Assembly (NCBI GenBank): GCA_947066815.1
Contig: CAMSZT010000035.1
Span: 1 to 33,957 of the forward strand
DNA: 33,957 nt
Direction: 5' to 3'
Source: an uncultured Lachnotalea sp.
Lineage (GTDB): Bacteria > Bacillota > Clostridia > Lachnospirales > Lachnospiraceae
The translations under genes and the position numbers were made by a program. The notes under the pieces are model-generated. The model was not told where the DNA came from. It saw only the letters and a program-made list of their open reading frames with translations, and ran no database searches. Within the stretch, counting starts at the first letter, position 1; every line of letters starts with the position of its first letter. This document shows, one piece after another, positions 26,689 to 33,870 of this stretch.

Positions 26689-26730
26689 GTCGTCAGCTCC
26701 TTTCCCTTAAGCCTCCACAGACAATTGTGA

Positions 26731-26759
26731 AATACAAAATTGCGAAAATATTCTGTCAA
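26731..26759 (-). promoter_or_regulatory. Promoter of the two-component operon, possible weak Pho box
   Basis: On the minus strand TTGACA (26754-26759), 17 bp, TGTATT (26731-26736). TT-rich hexamers TTGACA, TTTTCG and TTGTAT recur every 11 bp here, which could be a degenerate Pho box for autoregulation. The rest of the 26689-26930 gap holds only a GAAAACAG/CTGTTTTC hairpin (26813-26820, 26837-26844) and no convincing gene. Confidence 0.45.
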
Positions 26760-26930
26760 TATGTCCGTCCAAAGCCTGCTGCGCCAACCATTCCAATGAG
26801 CCCATAAGCACAGAAAACAGTCAGGCATAGGCCCTCCTGTTTTCCATGGTCTCATTTCCATGGCGCAGAGGGCTTTTCCCGGAAATATTGCCAGAATATT
26901 CAATAAACTTTTGAGTTTCGCAATTGCCCG

Positions 26931-28685
26931 TTAAGCATCCATGGCCGGAGCGTATTTTCTCCGGTACTCCTCGAACCTCTCGTGGAACTCCGCATTTCCG
27001 TCCCGGAAGTCGCGCAGGGACTCGTGAAGGTTCATATTCCGCTCCGCGATGTCCGTCACGCACCCGGCGATATTGGAGCAGTGGTCCGCCGTCCGTTCCA
27101 GGTTGGTCAGGATATCCGACCAGACAAATCCGGCCTCGATGGAACAGCTCCCGTCCTGGAGTCTTAAGATATGGCTGGAGCGGAATTTCTCCTTGAGAAG
27201 ATCGATGACCTGCTCCAAAGGCTCCACCCTCCTTGCCGCCTCCAGATCATTCTCCAAAAAGGCTCGGAGAGAAAGCCCCAGGATCTCTTCCACTGCCGCC
27301 GACAAAAGCCCGTACTCCGCCTGCGCTTCCCTGGTGAAGACAAGCCCCTTGCCCTTCAGCTCCTGGGCGGACTCCAAAAGATTTACCCCGTGGTCGGCGA
27401 TCCGCTCAAAATCCCCGATGACCTTGAGGAGCTTGGCCGCCTCCGTGTGATCCGCCTCCGTCACCTGCCGGTTGCTCAGATGGACCAGATAGGTGCCGAG
27501 GAGATCCTCATAGCGGTCCGTCAGCTCCTCCTTCTCCCGGACCGAATCCGCAAGCGCTTCCGAGTATCCTCTCAGGGAAGAAGCCCCCTCCGTGAGGGCC
27601 TCCGCCGCCGCCTCTGCCAGCTCTGCCGCCACCTCCCGGCATCGTTCCAGGGCGATGGAGGGGGTGCCAAGGAAACGCTCGTCAAGCTCCGCCACGGCCT
27701 CCGGCTTTTTATCGTCCCGGATCAGCCGGCAGGCCAGCCGTTCCAGAAAGGAAGCCATGGGCAGCATCAGGAGCGTGCAGAGGAGATTGAACACCGAGTG
27801 GGACATCGCGATGCCGAAAAGGGAGACCGGCCGGTCGAGAGCCGCCGGAGCCAGGAGTACCTTGATCAGGCAAAACACCGTAAGCCACACCGCCGTCCCG
27901 ATCACATTGAACAAAAGATGGACGACGGCCGCCCGCTTTGCATTCCGGTTCGCCCCCACGGAGGAGAGCATCGCCGTCACGCAGGTCCCGATGTTCTGGC
28001 CCATGATGATGGGGACCGCCGCCCCGTAGGATACCTGCCCCGTGGAAGCAAGCGCCTGCAAAATCCCGACGGAGGCAGAGCTTGACTGGATCAGGGCCGT
28101 GAGAACGGCTCCCGCCAGCACTCCCAGGACCGGATTTTCAAACAGCAGGAACAGCTGCCGGAAGGCCGGAACGTTTCCCAGGCCGGCGACCGCCTCCGAC
28201 ATGGTCTCCATCCCGAACATCAACGTCGCAAAGCCCAGAAAGATCATGCCGGTATCCTTTTTCTTGGAGCTTTTGCAAAACAGATAACAGACGATCCCGA
28301 TCAGGGCCAGTACCGGAGTGAACGAGGAAGGCTTTAACAGCCGGATCCACAGATTCCCGCTCTCAATGCCGGCAAGGCTCAGCAGCCAGGCCGTCACCGT
28401 CGTTCCGATATTGGCTCCCATGATCACATGGATCGCCTGTCCAAGAGTCATCAGCCCCGAATTGACAAAGCCCACCACCATGACCGTGGTGGCCGAGGAA
28501 CTCTGGATCAGGGCCGTCACCAGAAGCCCCGTCAAAAGCCCGGCAAGCTTCCCCGTGGTAAGCCTTCCCAGAACCGTGCGGAGCCTGCCGCCCGCCCGCC
28601 GCTCCAGTGCCTGCCCCATGACACTCATCCCGAAGAGGAACAGGCTCAGTCCTCCCACCATCGTCAAACCGTCAAAAATATCCAT
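26931..28685 (-). CDS. Na/Pi cotransporter with C-terminal PhoU domain
   Basis: 584 residues. The N-terminal 320 residues form the NaPi-II-type transporter with two inverted halves, each with a QSSS motif (61-64 QSSSATTV, 200-203 QSSSASVG) and matching GxNIGTT/GQNIGTC segments. Residues about 345-560 are PhoU-like helical bundles (for example LLKVIGDFERIADHGVNLLE and NLERTADHCSNIAGCV), thought to regulate transport. It takes up phosphate with sodium across the membrane. The start has GGAAGGAG nine bases upstream. Upstream Pho-box-like repeats and the neighbouring PhoB/PhoR-like genes suggest induction in low phosphate. Confidence 0.93.
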   Translation of the reverse strand: MDIFDGLTMVGGLSLFLFGMSVMGQALERRAGGRLRTVLGRLTTGKLAGLLTGLLVTALIQSSSATTVMVVGFVNSGLMTLGQAIHVIMGANIGTTVTAWLLSLAGIESGNLWIRLLKPSSFTPVLALIGIVCYLFCKSSKKKDTGMIFLGFATLMFGMETMSEAVAGLGNVPAFRQLFLLFENPVLGVLAGAVLTALIQSSSASVGILQALASTGQVSYGAAVPIIMGQNIGTCVTAMLSSVGANRNAKRAAVVHLLFNVIGTAVWLTVFCLIKVLLAPAALDRPVSLFGIAMSHSVFNLLCTLLMLPMASFLERLACRLIRDDKKPEAVAELDERFLGTPSIALERCREVAAELAEAAAEALTEGASSLRGYSEALADSVREKEELTDRYEDLLGTYLVHLSNRQVTEADHTEAAKLLKVIGDFERIADHGVNLLESAQELKGKGLVFTREAQAEYGLLSAAVEEILGLSLRAFLENDLEAARRVEPLEQVIDLLKEKFRSSHILRLQDGSCSIEAGFVWSDILTNLERTADHCSNIAGCVTDIAERNMNLHESLRDFRDGNAEFHERFEEYRRKYAPAMDA

Positions 28686-28888: not shown

Positions 28889-29506
28889 TTATCCTTTCAA
28901 ATGCAGCAGCACCTTTCCGACGGCCAGCGTCAGCACCGCAGCCACGATCGCCTCCGGCACCCCGTTGGCCACGATGATCGCCAGGATCCCGTCATAGACT
29001 GCCTCGACAGCCACCTCCTTTACCGCGGCATACCGGGCGGCAAAACAGAAATAGATCAGGTTCATGACCAGGATCGTGTTGACCAGGGCTCCCGCCACGC
29101 CAGCCAGGGGCAGGGCCGCAAACTCCGCCGTTTTATGCCCTCTTCCCAGCTTCATCACAGCTTTGTATACAAAATACGGGGCCACACCCACCAGGATCCG
29201 GGGAATAAAACAGATCACAAGGCTCCACAGATTGCCGCCGGAATAAAAAGGCGAGAACGCAAAAGATAGAAGACTGGGATTAAAGGTGTTGTTGATGAGA
29301 CTGGTCAGTCCAAAGACAGCTCCAAGAAACGCGCCCTTTTTCGGTCCTAAGACAACGGATCCGATAATGACGGGTACATGGATCAGGGTAGCCTTGATCA
29401 CCACCAGGTTGATGTAGCCCACGTAAGGCACGAAGGCCATCATGACGATAATGGCTGCAATGGCTGCAGTCAATACCAGGTTTCGGGTTTTTGCCGAAGT
29501 ATTCAT
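28889..29506 (-). CDS. ECF transporter S component
   Basis: 205 residues with about six membrane segments, the fold of vitamin-binding S components. Features: N-terminal KTRNLVLTAAIAAIIVMMAFVP, the HVPVIIGSVVLGPKKGAFLGAVFGLTSLINNTF loop, then FSPFYSGGNLWSLVICFIPRILVG and a C-terminal VPEAIVAAVLTLAVGKVL. The shape is closest to what I know as the pantothenate (PanT-like) group, but the substrate is inferred. S components need a shared EcfA/A'/T module, which is not in the window. The start has AGGAGG upstream, and the promoter is at 29585-29612. Confidence 0.85.
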   Translation of the reverse strand: MNTSAKTRNLVLTAAIAAIIVMMAFVPYVGYINLVVIKATLIHVPVIIGSVVLGPKKGAFLGAVFGLTSLINNTFNPSLLSFAFSPFYSGGNLWSLVICFIPRILVGVAPYFVYKAVMKLGRGHKTAEFAALPLAGVAGALVNTILVMNLIYFCFAARYAAVKEVAVEAVYDGILAIIVANGVPEAIVAAVLTLAVGKVLLHLKG

Positions 29507-29584: not shown

Positions 29585-29612
29585 ATTATAGCAGAGGAGG
29601 CGGAAAAGTCAA
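29585..29612 (-). promoter_or_regulatory. Promoter of the ECF S component gene
   Basis: On the minus strand TTGACT (29607-29612), 16 bp, TATAAT (29585-29590). The -35 overlaps the last codons of the upstream ABC ATPase gene, so the two genes are separate units. Confidence 0.65.
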
Positions 29613-30301
29613 GCCAGACGATCCGTTCCGTGTGCGCATCCTCCGGCAAATGTTATTTCTTTCCGGCCGGATCCGATCATTTTCCCCCGGTCGATCTCCG
29701 CCACCGTATCGCAGAGCACAGAAATATCCTCCCTGTTGTGGCTGGCCAGGAGAATGGTTTTGCCCTCCGCCTTCAATTTCAGCAGAAGTTCCCGGATATC
29801 TTCCACCCCCTGATTGTCCAGCCCGTTCATGGGTTCGTCCAGGATCAGCAAAGACGGATTCTCCATGATCGCCTGGGCAATTCCCAGCCGCTGGCGCATT
29901 CCCATGGAGTACTTGGAAACCGGTTTTCGATCTGCCGGATTTAATCCCACCAATTTTAACAGCCTTTTTATTTCGTCTTTTGTCATGCCGCCCGATAACT
30001 GAGCCAAAAACATCAAATTCCGAAATCCGCTGTAGCCGGGCAGAAAACCCGGAGCCTCTATGATGATCCCGGCCCCTTCCACCATATCCACATCTTTCCC
30101 GATCCGCTTTCCCCCGACCAGGATTTCTCCTTCTTCCGGATGCATAAACCCACATATACATTTGAACAATACCGTTTTTCCACTGCCGTTTCTTCCGATG
30201 ATCCCGTGAATTTTTCCCTGTTCAAAGGAAATGGAAACCTTGTCCAGCGCTACGAATTTCTGAAACCGTTTCGTCACATTTTTTACTTCTACGTAATCCA
30301 T
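29609..30301 (-). CDS. ABC transporter ATP-binding protein
   Basis: 230 residues. Walker A GRNGSGKTV (36-44, Lys42); a signature in the shortened form YSMGMRQR (131-138), common in BcrA/lantibiotic-immunity-type exporters; Walker B LLILDEP (151-157); and switch His188. It powers the two permeases encoded directly upstream. The C-terminal 20 residues (ITFAGGCAHGTDRLA) are unlike the family and overlap the promoter of the next gene, so the end may have been changed by a frameshift. It is the last gene of the right-edge operon, 16 bp after the permease. Confidence 0.92.
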   Translation of the reverse strand: MDYVEVKNVTKRFQKFVALDKVSISFEQGKIHGIIGRNGSGKTVLFKCICGFMHPEEGEILVGGKRIGKDVDMVEGAGIIIEAPGFLPGYSGFRNLMFLAQLSGGMTKDEIKRLLKLVGLNPADRKPVSKYSMGMRQRLGIAQAIMENPSLLILDEPMNGLDNQGVEDIRELLLKLKAEGKTILLASHNREDISVLCDTVAEIDRGKMIGSGRKEITFAGGCAHGTDRLA

Positions 30302-30317
30302 ATGATTCTCCTCTCCG

Positions 30318-31172
30318 TCAGCCTTCCGTCGACATGACCTCGATCACCTGTCTCCTGAATTTCCAGTGGGCGCAGCAAATAAACAAAAAAATCCACCCGG
30401 CCAAAAATAAAACCGCATATGGAACCGTCGGATAAGGAGACAGGGAATTCTTTCCCAGCATGGTCATCTCCATCCAGGCAGGGGGAGCCACATAATATCC
30501 CGCATACATATCTGAGAAGATATCTGCCAGATAGGGCGTAAAAGCGACTGCCGCCCCCGCTACCGGCCCAAGATAAATATGGCCGAACAGGTTGATGCAC
30601 ATCATCAGCAAGCCGATAAACGTACACACGGAGACTCCCATCGCCACGGAAAACAGCGCCGCCTGCCACGGTTCAAAACCAACGATCAGCTGATAGTCCA
30701 TCCGGATCGTCCCGACCTGATAAAAAGCGTTTGTCTGTGCCAAAGTACCGATCACCTTTCCCCATCCGCCGTCAATTGTCAGGTAGGGCAGGACCAGAAT
30801 CAAACTGACCATGTAAAGCGCCGCACAATAAAGGAACGAATTGACAACGATGTATCCGATCTGGGACCAGAGCCATTTCCTCCGTCCCGTGCGCAATATG
30901 ACATAAGGAGTATTATTTTTGATAAACGGTGCGTCACAAAAAATCAGCACGATCCCCAGAGAAAAAATATTCTGGATATAATGCTCTCCCATAAAGTGCG
31001 GGAACAGCCATGGAGTGACGGCATATCCTGTCTGCGCACAGAACGTCCGGATCGGCCCCGTCATTTGCTGAAACAAGATCGCCACCAGTATCACCGCAAT
31101 ATAAAATCTCGGAGTCCGAAAGCACACGGACAGGTTTCCGCGTATGACCGCCCATATTTTTTTAACACTCAC
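30318..31172 (-). CDS. ABC permease 1 (ABC-2 type), GTG start
   Basis: 284 residues. The start is a GTG at 31170-31172, with GGAGGAAG nine bases upstream, lying within the end of the previous permease gene (11-bp overlap); longer frames read over that gene. About six hydrophobic segments are seen: RFYIAVILVAILFQQ, a second near HYIQNIFSLGIVLIF, then WSQIGYIVVNSFLYCAALYMVSLILVLPY, a pair around AALFSVAMGVSVCTFIGLLM, and VLFLAGWIFLFICC. It is likely to form the membrane channel with the second permease. The family is recognised only by shape; the substrate is unknown. Confidence 0.75.
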   Translation of the reverse strand: MSVKKIWAVIRGNLSVCFRTPRFYIAVILVAILFQQMTGPIRTFCAQTGYAVTPWLFPHFMGEHYIQNIFSLGIVLIFCDAPFIKNNTPYVILRTGRRKWLWSQIGYIVVNSFLYCAALYMVSLILVLPYLTIDGGWGKVIGTLAQTNAFYQVGTIRMDYQLIVGFEPWQAALFSVAMGVSVCTFIGLLMMCINLFGHIYLGPVAGAAVAFTPYLADIFSDMYAGYYVAPPAWMEMTMLGKNSLSPYPTVPYAVLFLAGWIFLFICCAHWKFRRQVIEVMSTEG

Positions 31173-31980
31173 CCTGAATCTTCCTCCTCGCCCGTCCGGC
31201 AAACAAAATCCCCATGAAAACGATCCAAATGGCATAATATCCTGCCGTGTACAATAAATTCTGCCGCCACGGCAACCCCGGAAACACTCCCGTTCTGTGC
31301 GCCTGCCACGCAAGGATATCCGGCAGCCGGAGCGTTCCCGACAAATGATTGTAGACATAGTAGAAAATAACCGGTGCGCTGAGTATCACGAAACGGTTTG
31401 TGGAACAACTCGAGATATACAGCGAAAAGCAGGCCAGAAACGCATACAGGAATGCTTCCGGCAATATGGCAACCAGATAATAAATCTGCGGCACGGAGGT
31501 AAAAGCGGCGTCCGGAAAGGCCGTCGGCGCCAGTTCCATATAATACTGCAGATCCTCCGCCGTCCCCGGAAACAGGGGATAAAATATCCTGAGCGTCAGG
31601 ACAAACAGCAGATACCCAAGAACCGCAGCCAGCAGCGTCCCCGCCGCCACCGTCACTGTTTTTGACAAAAGATAGCATCTTCTTTTTCCCCGGATCAGCG
31701 CCTGTTTATAATACCCATGATCCCAATCCACGGCAAAGCTCATGCAATAGGGCAGGACCGCAAAAAAGATCAAAAGCATTTCAAAAGCGCCCACAACGGC
31801 CCGTCCATTAAACAAATAAAGAACCGTGGTCTCCCTTACCACCCGCATCTCGTCCAGAACGTTTAAAAGATTGATTCCCCAGATTCCCCCGGCGGCGACA
31901 TAAAACGGATATCCGGTGAACAGCCTTTTAAAGTCCACGGCCAGATAACTCCTTTGTTTTCTTTTCCTTACCTTTTCCAT
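31162..31980 (-). CDS. ABC permease 2 (ABC-2 type)
   Basis: 272 residues. A basic start (MEKVRKRKQRSYLAVDFKRLFTG) precedes about six hydrophobic segments, including EMLLIFFAVLPYCMSFAVDW, VAAGTLLAAVLGYLLFVLTLRIF, YYLVAILPEAFLYAFLACFSLYISS and NLLYTAGYYAIWIVFMGILF. A cytoplasmic stretch, DWDHGYYKQALIRGKRRCYLLSK, resembles the coupling region of ABC-2 permeases. Its ATG shares one base with the stop of the lipoprotein gene (TAATG) and its end overlaps permease 1, so all are coupled. The two permeases plus one ATPase make a heteromeric exporter. The substrate is unknown; the secreted protein upstream is one candidate. Confidence 0.78.
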   Translation of the reverse strand: MEKVRKRKQRSYLAVDFKRLFTGYPFYVAAGGIWGINLLNVLDEMRVVRETTVLYLFNGRAVVGAFEMLLIFFAVLPYCMSFAVDWDHGYYKQALIRGKRRCYLLSKTVTVAAGTLLAAVLGYLLFVLTLRIFYPLFPGTAEDLQYYMELAPTAFPDAAFTSVPQIYYLVAILPEAFLYAFLACFSLYISSCSTNRFVILSAPVIFYYVYNHLSGTLRLPDILAWQAHRTGVFPGLPWRQNLLYTAGYYAIWIVFMGILFAGRARRKIQGEC

Positions 31981-33155
31981 TACGACAACAAGAGCTCCTC
32001 CCCCGATTTCGCATGATAATAAGTATAGCTGACTTCCACCGGACGATCCTTCACGTCCTCCTCAAAGGATTTCCTCACTTCTTCCCGTTCCGCCTCGGGA
32101 AGCTCATTATAACCATACAGTTCCATGATCCCGTCAACTGTCCGCTCCTGCTCTGTTTTCACCCTCCAGATCGGAATCAGCTGCAGGCCTCCCTCTTCAT
32201 CAAGCGCCGTCAGATACATCAACTGAAACTCAGAAATTTTCAGATCTCCCGTCATGATCAGCAGGTCAAATTTGTCCTCCAGACGGTCGGCAATCTCTTC
32301 CGCACCCAAAATATCCCATCGATCCGATTCTTTTTGAATCTCCGGACAGCCGTCCACATGCAGGGCAATGATCCCATCTTTCGTATATCTGGCTTCTGTT
32401 CCATATCCCCCGATCTCATTTCCATTTGTATCCGTGTAAAATTTATCATAGACCGGCGCCTGATCCTGCAGAATTTCCAGAGAGATCGTGTACATACCAT
32501 CTTCAGGCTCCCACGTTCCTTTATAGGGATAATTTTTCTCCCTAACTCTTTCTACAAAGTCCGGATCGTCCTTCCAGGTGTCCTCTTTTTCCTGCATGGC
32601 TTTGTAATCGATCGTGCAGGCCTTTTCCAGGCGGAACTGTTCCACCCCCAGCGCTTTCACCGTCTCCTCAACCTTCCGGCACGCCTCTTCCAGAGTGCAA
32701 AATGGCAGGTCTTCCTGTTCCCCCGGTTTTTCCAGGGTCGTAAACTGGCCGTAAAGAACGCTCTCTCTGACAACGGAGTAAGAAAGTCCCGTTCCCACCT
32801 GCAATGTTTCTTCTTCCGTAGAAACATAGGTCCCCCCCTCTTCCTCCCTGACCACCGCTTCTTCGTCCGGCAGCAGCAGCTCTCTCGCCGTATCTGCCGA
32901 GAATTCTTTCAAATTGATATCATAAACCGGAACCGCCTTTCTTCCCAGAGGATTGATCACCTCCGCGTCGATCTCTATCCCGTCTTCCAAAGTCCTTTTT
33001 ATATGCGTTTCCTCCGAAACTGTCTCCGAAACTCCGCCCGTTTCTTTGCAGACAACTTCCTCAGCACTCTCTTCCAGTCCCTTGGTCTCGTTTTCCTTTC
33101 CACATGCAGCCACAAATAACAGCATAAGGATAACCACAGCGCCAATTCTTTTCAT
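31980..33155 (-). CDS. Lipoprotein of the right-edge ABC operon
   Basis: 391 residues from ATG 33153-33155 (GGGAGG site). The signal peptide MKRIGAVVILMLLFVAACGKE has lipobox VAAC, with Cys19 lipidated. An acidic linker (20-60) precedes a larger extracellular domain without motifs I can name, rich in Glu, Asp and aromatic residues, with stretches like VNGIMELYGYNELPEAEREEV near the C-terminus. It resembles uncharacterised lipoproteins found beside ABC exporters in Lachnospiraceae, possibly an immunity or accessory protein. It sits between the secreted protein and the permeases, with its stop sharing a base with the permease start. Confidence 0.72.
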   Translation of the reverse strand: MKRIGAVVILMLLFVAACGKENETKGLEESAEEVVCKETGGVSETVSEETHIKRTLEDGIEIDAEVINPLGRKAVPVYDINLKEFSADTARELLLPDEEAVVREEEGGTYVSTEEETLQVGTGLSYSVVRESVLYGQFTTLEKPGEQEDLPFCTLEEACRKVEETVKALGVEQFRLEKACTIDYKAMQEKEDTWKDDPDFVERVREKNYPYKGTWEPEDGMYTISLEILQDQAPVYDKFYTDTNGNEIGGYGTEARYTKDGIIALHVDGCPEIQKESDRWDILGAEEIADRLEDKFDLLIMTGDLKISEFQLMYLTALDEEGGLQLIPIWRVKTEQERTVDGIMELYGYNELPEAEREEVRKSFEEDVKDRPVEVSYTYYHAKSGEELLLS

Positions 33156-33222
33156 TTTCACGTCTGCCTCCCTGAAGAAAATCTTGAAAGCCGCCATGCA
33201 AATACATGGCGGCTGCAATGCT

Positions 33223-33663
33223 TTATGGACACCAGGTTCCGGTCACCACCAGCGGATATTTATCAGAACCTCCGACACTCCCATAGAGATAATAGGATCT
33301 TCCGGCGTTCCCGGCGCCCGCATCCAGGTACTTTATCTTTTGTGTTTTGTTCAAAACATGTTTTGTCACGGTACAATACTCGGTCGCATATGACCTTCTA
33401 GCGTCATCATTCCGCACCCGAATATAAATCGTTGCGTTATACTCCGCCACGTTCCCGGCTATCCCGCCCGATCTGGCAGTCACATAAGCATACTGATCCC
33501 CTTCCCTCGCTTTTGTCATCCAAGGTTCCCCTTCCGCCATGATGGAACCTTCATTGCCGGAAATAAACCCAAATTTAAAATCCCCGCCATAGGCAAACGC
33601 CTGCATAGATACAGACAAAAGACACAGAACAGCTCCTAAAAACATAAATTTTCTCTTTTTCAT
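33223..33663 (-). CDS. Small secreted protein of unknown function
   Basis: 146 residues from ATG 33661-33663, with TAGGAGG eight bases upstream. A classical signal peptide (1-23) ends in AFA before YGGDFKFG. The mature 123-residue protein is rich in Gly, Tyr and Ser, predicted mainly beta, with motifs NVAEYNATIYIRVRN, SYATEYCTVTKHV and a C-terminal VVTGTWCP. Two Cys remain in the mature part and might form a disulfide. A decayed relative lies directly upstream. Its place before an exporter and a lipoprotein recalls bacteriocin or toxin operons, but no known family is recognised; it may equally be a surface or signalling protein. Confidence 0.72.
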   Translation of the reverse strand: MKKRKFMFLGAVLCLLSVSMQAFAYGGDFKFGFISGNEGSIMAEGEPWMTKAREGDQYAYVTARSGGIAGNVAEYNATIYIRVRNDDARRSYATEYCTVTKHVLNKTQKIKYLDAGAGNAGRSYYLYGSVGGSDKYPLVVTGTWCP

Positions 33664-33673
33664 TCTTTTCCTC

Positions 33674-33870
33674 CTACGGAACCCAGCGTCCCACCGCATA
33701 AACCGGATGGCGCTCCGTACTTTCAAGATTTGCATATAAACGATATGGTTCTCCATATATATCAGCCGATGGATTCAGATATTTTAACTTCTTGGTATCT
33801 CCCACCTCATTATAGCTGATCGTCTTATATTCAGTCGCATATTTCCCAACTCAGCCACATGACCGTCTCC
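33674..33870 (-). pseudogene. Decayed paralogue of the small secreted protein
   Basis: A 55-codon frame (33674-33841) beginning YATEYKTISYNEV and ending HPVYAVGRWVP before a TAG stop is clearly related to the C-terminus of the neighbouring secreted protein (SYATEYCTVTKHV ... YPLVVTGTWCP). It has no Met and an in-frame TGA just upstream. In another frame GGDGHVAEL (33850-33870) resembles GGIAGNVAEY of the neighbour, so an internal deletion with frameshift removed the middle and N-terminus. A ribosome binding site and promoter-like region still lie upstream. Confidence 0.7.

Follow-up and report, generated by a model that had tools for sequence, protein, structure and literature searches.

We analysed a stretch of 33,957 nucleotides (the window), which is the whole of contig CAMSZT010000035.1 from an uncultured Lachnotalea sp. 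(assembly GCA_947066815.1; contig C35 of genome G000 in our numbering), and found close to its end a compact operon encoding a small secreted protein without a recognised family (SecP), a lipoprotein, two permeases and an ATP-binding cassette (ABC) ATPase. The best of the readings that we weighed is that SecP is a bacteriocin-like protein against which the lipoprotein and the transporter protect the producer, a reading to which we give about an even chance of being right. A first-pass annotation, made from the letters of the window, had already seen a likeness to bacteriocin production and immunity, and the analogy remains the best fit, supported by agr loci beside some secP genes, by the divergence of SecP and the lipoprotein, and by loss of secP from operons in which the transporter is kept. 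That annotation had also given the gene set and order correctly: all five reading frames are open on the minus strand, with 0 internal stops. The operon and its associated features are as follows.

33223..33663, minus strand: secP, open reading frame of 146 amino acids (aa), mature product about 122 aa
33592..33663, minus strand: predicted SecP signal peptide, 24 aa (...MQAFA/YGGDF), read from the sequence pattern, with a hydrophobic peak at residues 6-24
33189..33214, minus strand: hairpin in the gap between secP and the lipoprotein gene, 11 bp stem and 4-base loop
31980..33155, minus strand: lipoprotein, 391 aa, lipobox VAAC; candidate immunity or partner protein
31162..31980, minus strand: permease 1, 272 aa
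30318..31172, minus strand: permease 2, 284 aa, GTG start
29609..30301, minus strand: ABC ATPase, BcrA/LanF-like (PF00005, E 1.7e-30), with Glu at the Q-loop position (GIIIEAPGF)
33674..33844, minus strand: truncated tandem SecP paralogue, C-terminal part only, ending GRWVP; upstream of secP

The lipoprotein and permease 1 genes overlap by 1 bp and the two permease genes by 11 bp, and permease 2 is separated from the ATPase gene by 16 bp, in agreement with the 1-11 bp overlaps and short gaps described previously; the gap between secP and the lipoprotein gene is 67 bp. The truncated paralogue is 36% identical to SecP residues 91-146 (E 1e-7).

Conservation of the gene set

Searched for singly in 145 genomes (the window's own included), the lipoprotein was found in 9, permease 1 in 20 and permease 2 in 28. 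The lipoprotein, both permeases and the ATPase stand together in 68 of the 111 loci that were fetched, some of which are close kin, and this recurrence indicates that the arrangement is not due to chance. A SecP relative is present in 27 of these 68 operons and none is shown in the other 41, suggesting that the transporter has another or a broader job. The split depends in part on how the loci were obtained: 11 of the 111 (L116-L118, L245-L252) were fetched through a SecP match and supply 8 of the 27, a few loci without SecP reach a contig end right before the lipoprotein gene (L092, L165), and SecPs of very divergent sequence may have escaped detection. Among loci fetched by ATPase similarity (the best 80 of at least 587), SecP relatives occur in 12 of 42 four-gene operons. 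Not included in the 111 are 17 of the 20 loci from one early fetch; an earlier tally with them gave 63 full operons in 120 loci, 22 with SecP.

Starting from SecP instead, a profile search of 341 genomes of the class gave 8 places at an E-value of 1e-6 or better besides the window's own. In seven of these the next gene downstream encodes a lipoprotein of this family. The complete set of four downstream genes is present at six of the seven, and at L249 permease 2 and the greater part of the ATPase have been lost. At the remaining place (L250), the match is a DUF2712 protein adjoining a different ABC set. In 299 genomes of the family, 4 of the 5 matches to the SecP profile at E 1e-5 or better outside the window's own genome head such operons (L087, L116, L117, L118), the L087 protein being itself a row of that profile, and the fifth (genome G203) covers the first 69 profile positions only, within a 312-residue protein. 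Reading of the neighbourhoods likewise showed that in many relatives the lipoprotein gene is immediately preceded by a gene for a small secreted protein. Of the five-gene unit proposed in the first-pass annotation, the four downstream genes do stay together and secP comes and goes: the module of four genes is what stays constant, with secP as an optional head gene.

SecP and its relatives

SecP matched no family in Pfam or NCBIfam, and within these databases its earlier description as an exported protein of no recognised family holds. It starts with a Sec-type signal peptide pattern, in which the AxA cleavage pattern ends AFA, and its C-terminus is GTWCP. The AlphaFold2 model, the sole one made for a SecP-type protein, is all-beta (predicted local distance difference test, 75; predicted template modelling score, 0.71). 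The idea that SecP is a close, widely conserved protein was rejected, as single-sequence searches matched its own genome only (1 of 145 relatives; 1 of 397 genomes of the family). Its relatives can be reached only via profiles and gene context, and are 14-40% identical to SecP, those of L176 and L195 being at about 40%. Common to them are the signal peptide (in nearly all; L094 is without), size, an F-x-F start, an AYVT-like motif and the C-terminus, which is W/F/Y-x-P in 27 and W-x-P in 22 of 34 distinct SecP-type proteins scoring at least 29 bits, the profile's own members included.

At E-values up to 0.001 the profile matched 53 of the 341 class genomes (own included), many of these weak rows covering part of the profile only, within much longer frames. 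Eight clear and four weak places were followed. Among the weak ones, L252 has an ABC set, L253 has no ABC neighbour in the neighbourhood listing, and L255 looks like a false match, its protein being presumably of LysM type. At the fourth, L254 (3701-10634), consecutive genes encode a response regulator, a histidine kinase (HK), AgrB, a small secreted product with a weak likeness to SecP, an FtsX permease of 990 aa and an ATPase, a layout that recalls the lactococcin 972 type, here adjoining agr genes. A plasmid search gave no match to the nearest SecP. Two SecP genes occur at L118 (7115-11407), one ahead of the lipoprotein gene and the other past the ATPase gene. At L176 (4147-4553) the first of two tandem SecP genes is split into two fragments; both copies are open at L195.

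Lipoprotein, permeases and ATPase

The predicted fold of the lipoprotein resembles YycH, YycI and YpeB, and PDB 5coz is related to it by predicted fold and also by sequence. Unlike these proteins, it has no Pfam family (E up to 1) and stands in a different gene context; it is below the cut-offs of NCBIfam as well. YpeB is a germination protein, and the common fold is what speaks for a sporulation or surface-attachment operon, the former having been raised in the first-pass annotation as well. The neighbours of the relatives, namely agr, BlaI/M56, LytTR/HK and extracytoplasmic function (ECF) sigma genes, do not point there, no search having been aimed at sporulation or sortase families, and we regard such a role as highly improbable. 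At L155 (3906-10120), one transporter set is surrounded by three lipoproteins of this family.

Permease 1 had no match in Pfam or NCBIfam at E-values up to 1, and permease 2 had a weak match to WxPxxD_TM (NF035952; E 0.016, 14.9 bits against a cut-off of 70). Hydropathy plots have 4 and 5 peaks for the window's permeases; averaged over alignments, each permease has 5, of which one is of double width, giving five or six helices where a LanFEG permease would have six. As had been proposed, the ATPase is BcrA/LanF-like: among NCBIfam models it scores best with that of lantibiotic-protection ATPases, TIGR03740, reaching 182.8 bits, below the cut-off of 309.75. Glu at the Q-loop position (the E-loop), which Gln occupies in most ABC ATPases, is typical of BcrA/LanF ATPases and is found in the window's ATPase and in its copy in the sister genome G010. 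Related ATPases have Glu in every row where the pattern was found except L087, which has Asp; 15 rows had no pattern match. The term E-loop was not found in our literature search.

The transporter had been labelled an exporter in the first-pass annotation, and this label is probably wrong. It shares an operon with SecP, and the matches of its ATPase include NCBIfam PmtC, the ATPase of a phenol-soluble modulin exporter, and PDB 6xjh, which we take to be PmtCD. However, SecP has a Sec-type signal peptide with an AxA cleavage pattern, so that the ABC transporter need not export it, 41 of the 68 operons have the transporter with no SecP shown, and the nearest model of the ATPase is that of a protection transporter. 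We therefore consider export of SecP by this transporter very unlikely.

Loss of secP and divergence between paralogous operons

The copy of the operon in G010, 94% identical over 29679-32819, lies on another contig than the counterpart of the window's flank, which is 82-89% identical, a sign of movement of the operon. This copy is without secP and the start of the lipoprotein gene, and its permease 1 is broken. At a second locus, secP, BlaI and M56 are absent from L099, which belongs to the window's own genome, and present in the complete version, L095 of G010. Similarity between the two starts at the secP stop codon, and the lipoprotein and transporter are 92-97% identical. At a third, L090 (G010) retains only the last part of a secP that is complete in L085 (genome G009). 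In 2 of the 3 pairs inspected secP was lost with the downstream genes intact, as one would predict for an immunity that persists after its toxin has gone; the pair of window and G010 represents general decay.

Genome G578 has three such operons (a and b at L248, c at L249). Between them the signal peptides are 92-96% identical, mature SecP 50-80%, the lipoprotein 78-90% and permease 1 97-100%; permease 2 and the ATPase can be compared in one pair only and are 98% and 99% identical, respectively. The ratio of nonsynonymous to synonymous substitution rates (dN/dS), calculated with our own script and given as point estimates that do not separate relaxed from diversifying selection, is 0.94, 0.64 and 1.15 for mature SecP, 0.34-0.39 for the lipoprotein, 0-0.15 for permease 1 and 0.02 for the ATPase, as well as 0.40 for permease 2 and 0.38-0.76 for the 24-codon signal peptide, both with few changes. 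Changes in the lipoprotein between a and either b or c fall mostly in residues 260-390, the C-terminal domain; in the closer pair b/c they are not concentrated there. Such divergence is what one would predict for two specificity partners that share one transporter.

Hairpin and neighbouring regulators

The hairpin behind secP (z -2.9) was equalled by 4 of 500 shuffles in one test and by 1 of 200 in another. A single stem-loop was found by script in the corresponding gap of 26 of 28 loci, mostly unrelated in sequence. When the 27 scorable gaps were folded against shuffles, z was below -2 in 20 and below -3 in 15 (mean -3.7), compared with 0 of 27 below -2 (mean 0.04) for a same-length stretch inside the lipoprotein gene; a few of the loci are near relatives (L176/L195, the L248 pair), and these are non-independent. 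A consensus scan of the window gave 10 terminator-like sites against 4.9 expected (standard deviation 2.3), from which the hairpin is absent because its T run is short. Read naturally, the hairpin would favour secP through partial termination or through processing of the RNA.

Because the contig stops at 33957, upstream regulators of the window's operon are out of view; regulators were counted within about 8.5 kb of the operons of relatives using our own profiles. Genes of agr type were recognised beside 4 of the 27 secP operons and beside 0 of the 41 in which no secP is shown; minus the 11 loci fetched via SecP, the counts are 3 of 19 and 0 of 41. The clearest case is L189, where a divergent HK and response regulator, AgrD (TIGR04223, 24.8 bits against a cut-off of 19), AgrB (PF04647, 146 bits), secP, lipoprotein, permeases and ATPase stand in a row. 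BlaI/M56 genes accompany 6 of 27 operons with secP and 4 of 41 without, Pfam confirming BlaI in L094 and L082 and M56 in L096. LytTR/HK genes, with or without agr, are found by 6 of 27 and 19 of 41 operons, respectively, and ECF/anti-sigma genes by 1 of 27 and 5 of 41.

These counts bear on a different reading, in which the cassette is an envelope-stress or antimicrobial-peptide resistance module that guards against the peptides of others, as CprABC does, SecP being a drug-binding accessory or a reporting signal. The many operons with no SecP shown are in its favour, as are the LytTR/HK genes near 19 of them and the ECF/anti-sigma genes near 5, including Bacillus L148, L153 and L157, in which the four-gene module is accompanied by an ECF sigma/anti-sigma pair and no SecP was seen. 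Moreover, BlaI/M56 sensors respond to wall stress. CprABC-type resistance operons likewise have an ABC transporter with an adjoining lipoprotein gene, as in C. difficile, and two-component systems (PMC5786555), whereas here a gene for a secreted protein heads 27 of 68 operons. Under the resistance reading one would not expect mature SecP to diverge strongly beside near-constant transporter genes, SecP copies to come in pairs (window, L195, L118) or agr loci to occur only beside secP, and we consider this reading unlikely.

Comparison with known systems

Operons of the lactococcin 972 type encode a Sec-secreted protein followed by ABC genes, in likeness to the secP operon. SecP had no match to TIGR01653 (lactococcin 972) at E-values up to 1, and one SecP relative matched at E 0.063 only. 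The closest described architecture is LanI+LanFEG immunity (NisI/NisFEG type), consisting of a lipoprotein, two permeases and an ATPase (PMC5786555). Similarly, the window's lipoprotein adjoins two permeases and one E-loop ATPase whose best model is a lantibiotic-protection one; unlike that system, the ATPase is below the family cut-off and the lipoprotein model is YycI/YpeB-like.

A further comparison is with a Priestia plasmid operon of the order DUF2712 - DUF2705 - WxPxxD - DUF2705 - ATPase (in another listing the second gene encodes a hypothetical protein). There too a small secreted protein comes first, followed by membrane proteins and an ABC ATPase, and permease 2 is weakly WxPxxD-like, but no lipoprotein of the window's family is annotated there. 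The SecP profile matched one DUF2712 protein at E 7.4e-8, signal peptide included; SecP itself had no match to PF10916 (DUF2712) at E-values up to 1. For the mature parts, hhalign gave a probability of 11.5 and an E-value of 0.0026, and the mature SecP profile reached DUF2712 at E 0.0019, compared with 0.11 for the best of 1000 shuffles. In the reverse search, from DUF2712 to SecPs, the SecPs were not separated from shuffles. Given the contribution of the signal peptide, the marginal mature matches and the failed reverse search, we do not accept SecP as a DUF2712 member; the two may be distant relatives.

DUF2712 is also present in B. subtilis, where the gene is presumably yybN and the Priestia operon would resemble yybN-yybJ. 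The yybN operon is a Rok target listed alongside the sdp, sunA and sboA-alb genes (PMC2978689) and is called 'of unknown function' (PMC11841835), and YybJ2KL is listed as 'Unknown' (PMC11466899). Our literature search found DUF2712 in no paper, and 3 papers with WxPxxD, DUF2705, 5COZ or TIGR03740.

Other features of the window

A promoter-like site (TTGACT-16-TATAAT, 11/12, with TG) lies at 29585-29612 on the minus strand, between the ATPase gene and the next gene (28889-29506), which encodes a hydrophobic protein of 205 aa; the consensus scan gave 7 promoter-like sites against 5.2 expected. A dispersed repeat of about 210 bp at 26715-26932 has 53 matches in its own genome, some being inverted overlaps of one place, and about 44 rows in G010. 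An Rfam search of the window at gathering scores gave 0 matches.

Evaluation and proposed mechanism

Several observations weigh against SecP as a bacteriocin-like protein with self-protection by its neighbours. SecP relatives were seen in a minority of the four-gene operons, and the decay of the lipoprotein and permease 1 genes in G010 suggests that protection was not kept there. For operons a and b of G578, synonymous divergence is 0.46 in secP and 0.48-0.72 in the end of the lipoprotein gene compared with 0.03 in permease 1, and recombination, either homogenising the transporter genes or swapping the operon head, may therefore explain much of the pattern. Specific coevolution of SecP and lipoprotein across 28 operons was rejected: partial correlations with SecP distances given the ATPase were 0.38 for the lipoprotein, 0.25 for permease 1 and 0.35 for permease 2, which tracks nearly as well, and each beat 500 of 500 permutations. 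Compared with LanI+LanFEG, the ATPase falls widely short of the TIGR03740 cut-off for the LanF family, SecP is Sec-type and at about 120 mature residues far larger than a lantibiotic, and NisI and SpaI are not among the 50 fold matches listed for the lipoprotein model. The difference in agr counts is a small one, and L116, among the four loci behind it, had been fetched for its SecP; our profiles recognised no regulator by 15 of 27 operons with secP (14 of 41 without). To our knowledge, BlaI/M56 is not a usual bacteriocin regulator. Lastly, YycI and YpeB proteins are regulators of a kinase or a wall enzyme. It is conceivable that the cassette serves self-directed signalling or wall remodelling, SecP being a ligand or glycan-binding protein for the cell's own envelope, the lipoprotein a YycI/YpeB-like receptor or inhibitor and the transporter a sensor; this we hold to be quite unlikely.

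If SecP is indeed bacteriocin-like, it would be made as a pre-protein, exported via the general Sec pathway and released as a beta-sandwich protein of about 120 residues acting on the envelope of related cells. The hairpin that follows could let secP mRNA build up above that of the downstream genes. At the producer surface, the lipid-anchored YycI/YpeB-like lipoprotein would bind SecP, with the C-terminal domain as candidate site, and the LanFEG-like transporter, of two permeases and one ATPase, would clear SecP or the damaged target from the membrane, the lipoprotein and transporter jointly giving self-protection. In relatives, control of expression may lie with agr-type quorum sensing, with two-component systems of the LytTR kind or with BlaI/M56 (BlaR1-like) sensors.

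Other Bacillota have related cassettes. We tentatively put forward, as a possibility about which we are somewhat doubtful, that SecP-type proteins are a widespread, undescribed class of bacteriocins in Clostridia and other Bacillota, beta-sandwich proteins that are non-modified, secreted by Sec and controlled by agr (quorum) or BlaI/M56 (wall stress), for which immunity is provided by a specificity-determining YycI/YpeB-like lipoprotein of varying C-terminal domain and an interchangeable LanFEG-like transporter, and of which DUF2712/yybN-type operons are distant members. The cassette is a good candidate for a putative bacteriocin-like system that is undescribed within the literature searched. 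If this is true, a class of secreted antagonists that are proteins rather than peptides would be added to Clostridia and other Bacillota. Moreover, it would come with a built-in specificity key, namely paralogous operons of the same genome that differ in SecP and lipoprotein and hardly in the transporter, and would offer a testable function for DUF2712, for the 5coz lipoprotein family and perhaps for the B. subtilis yybN operon.

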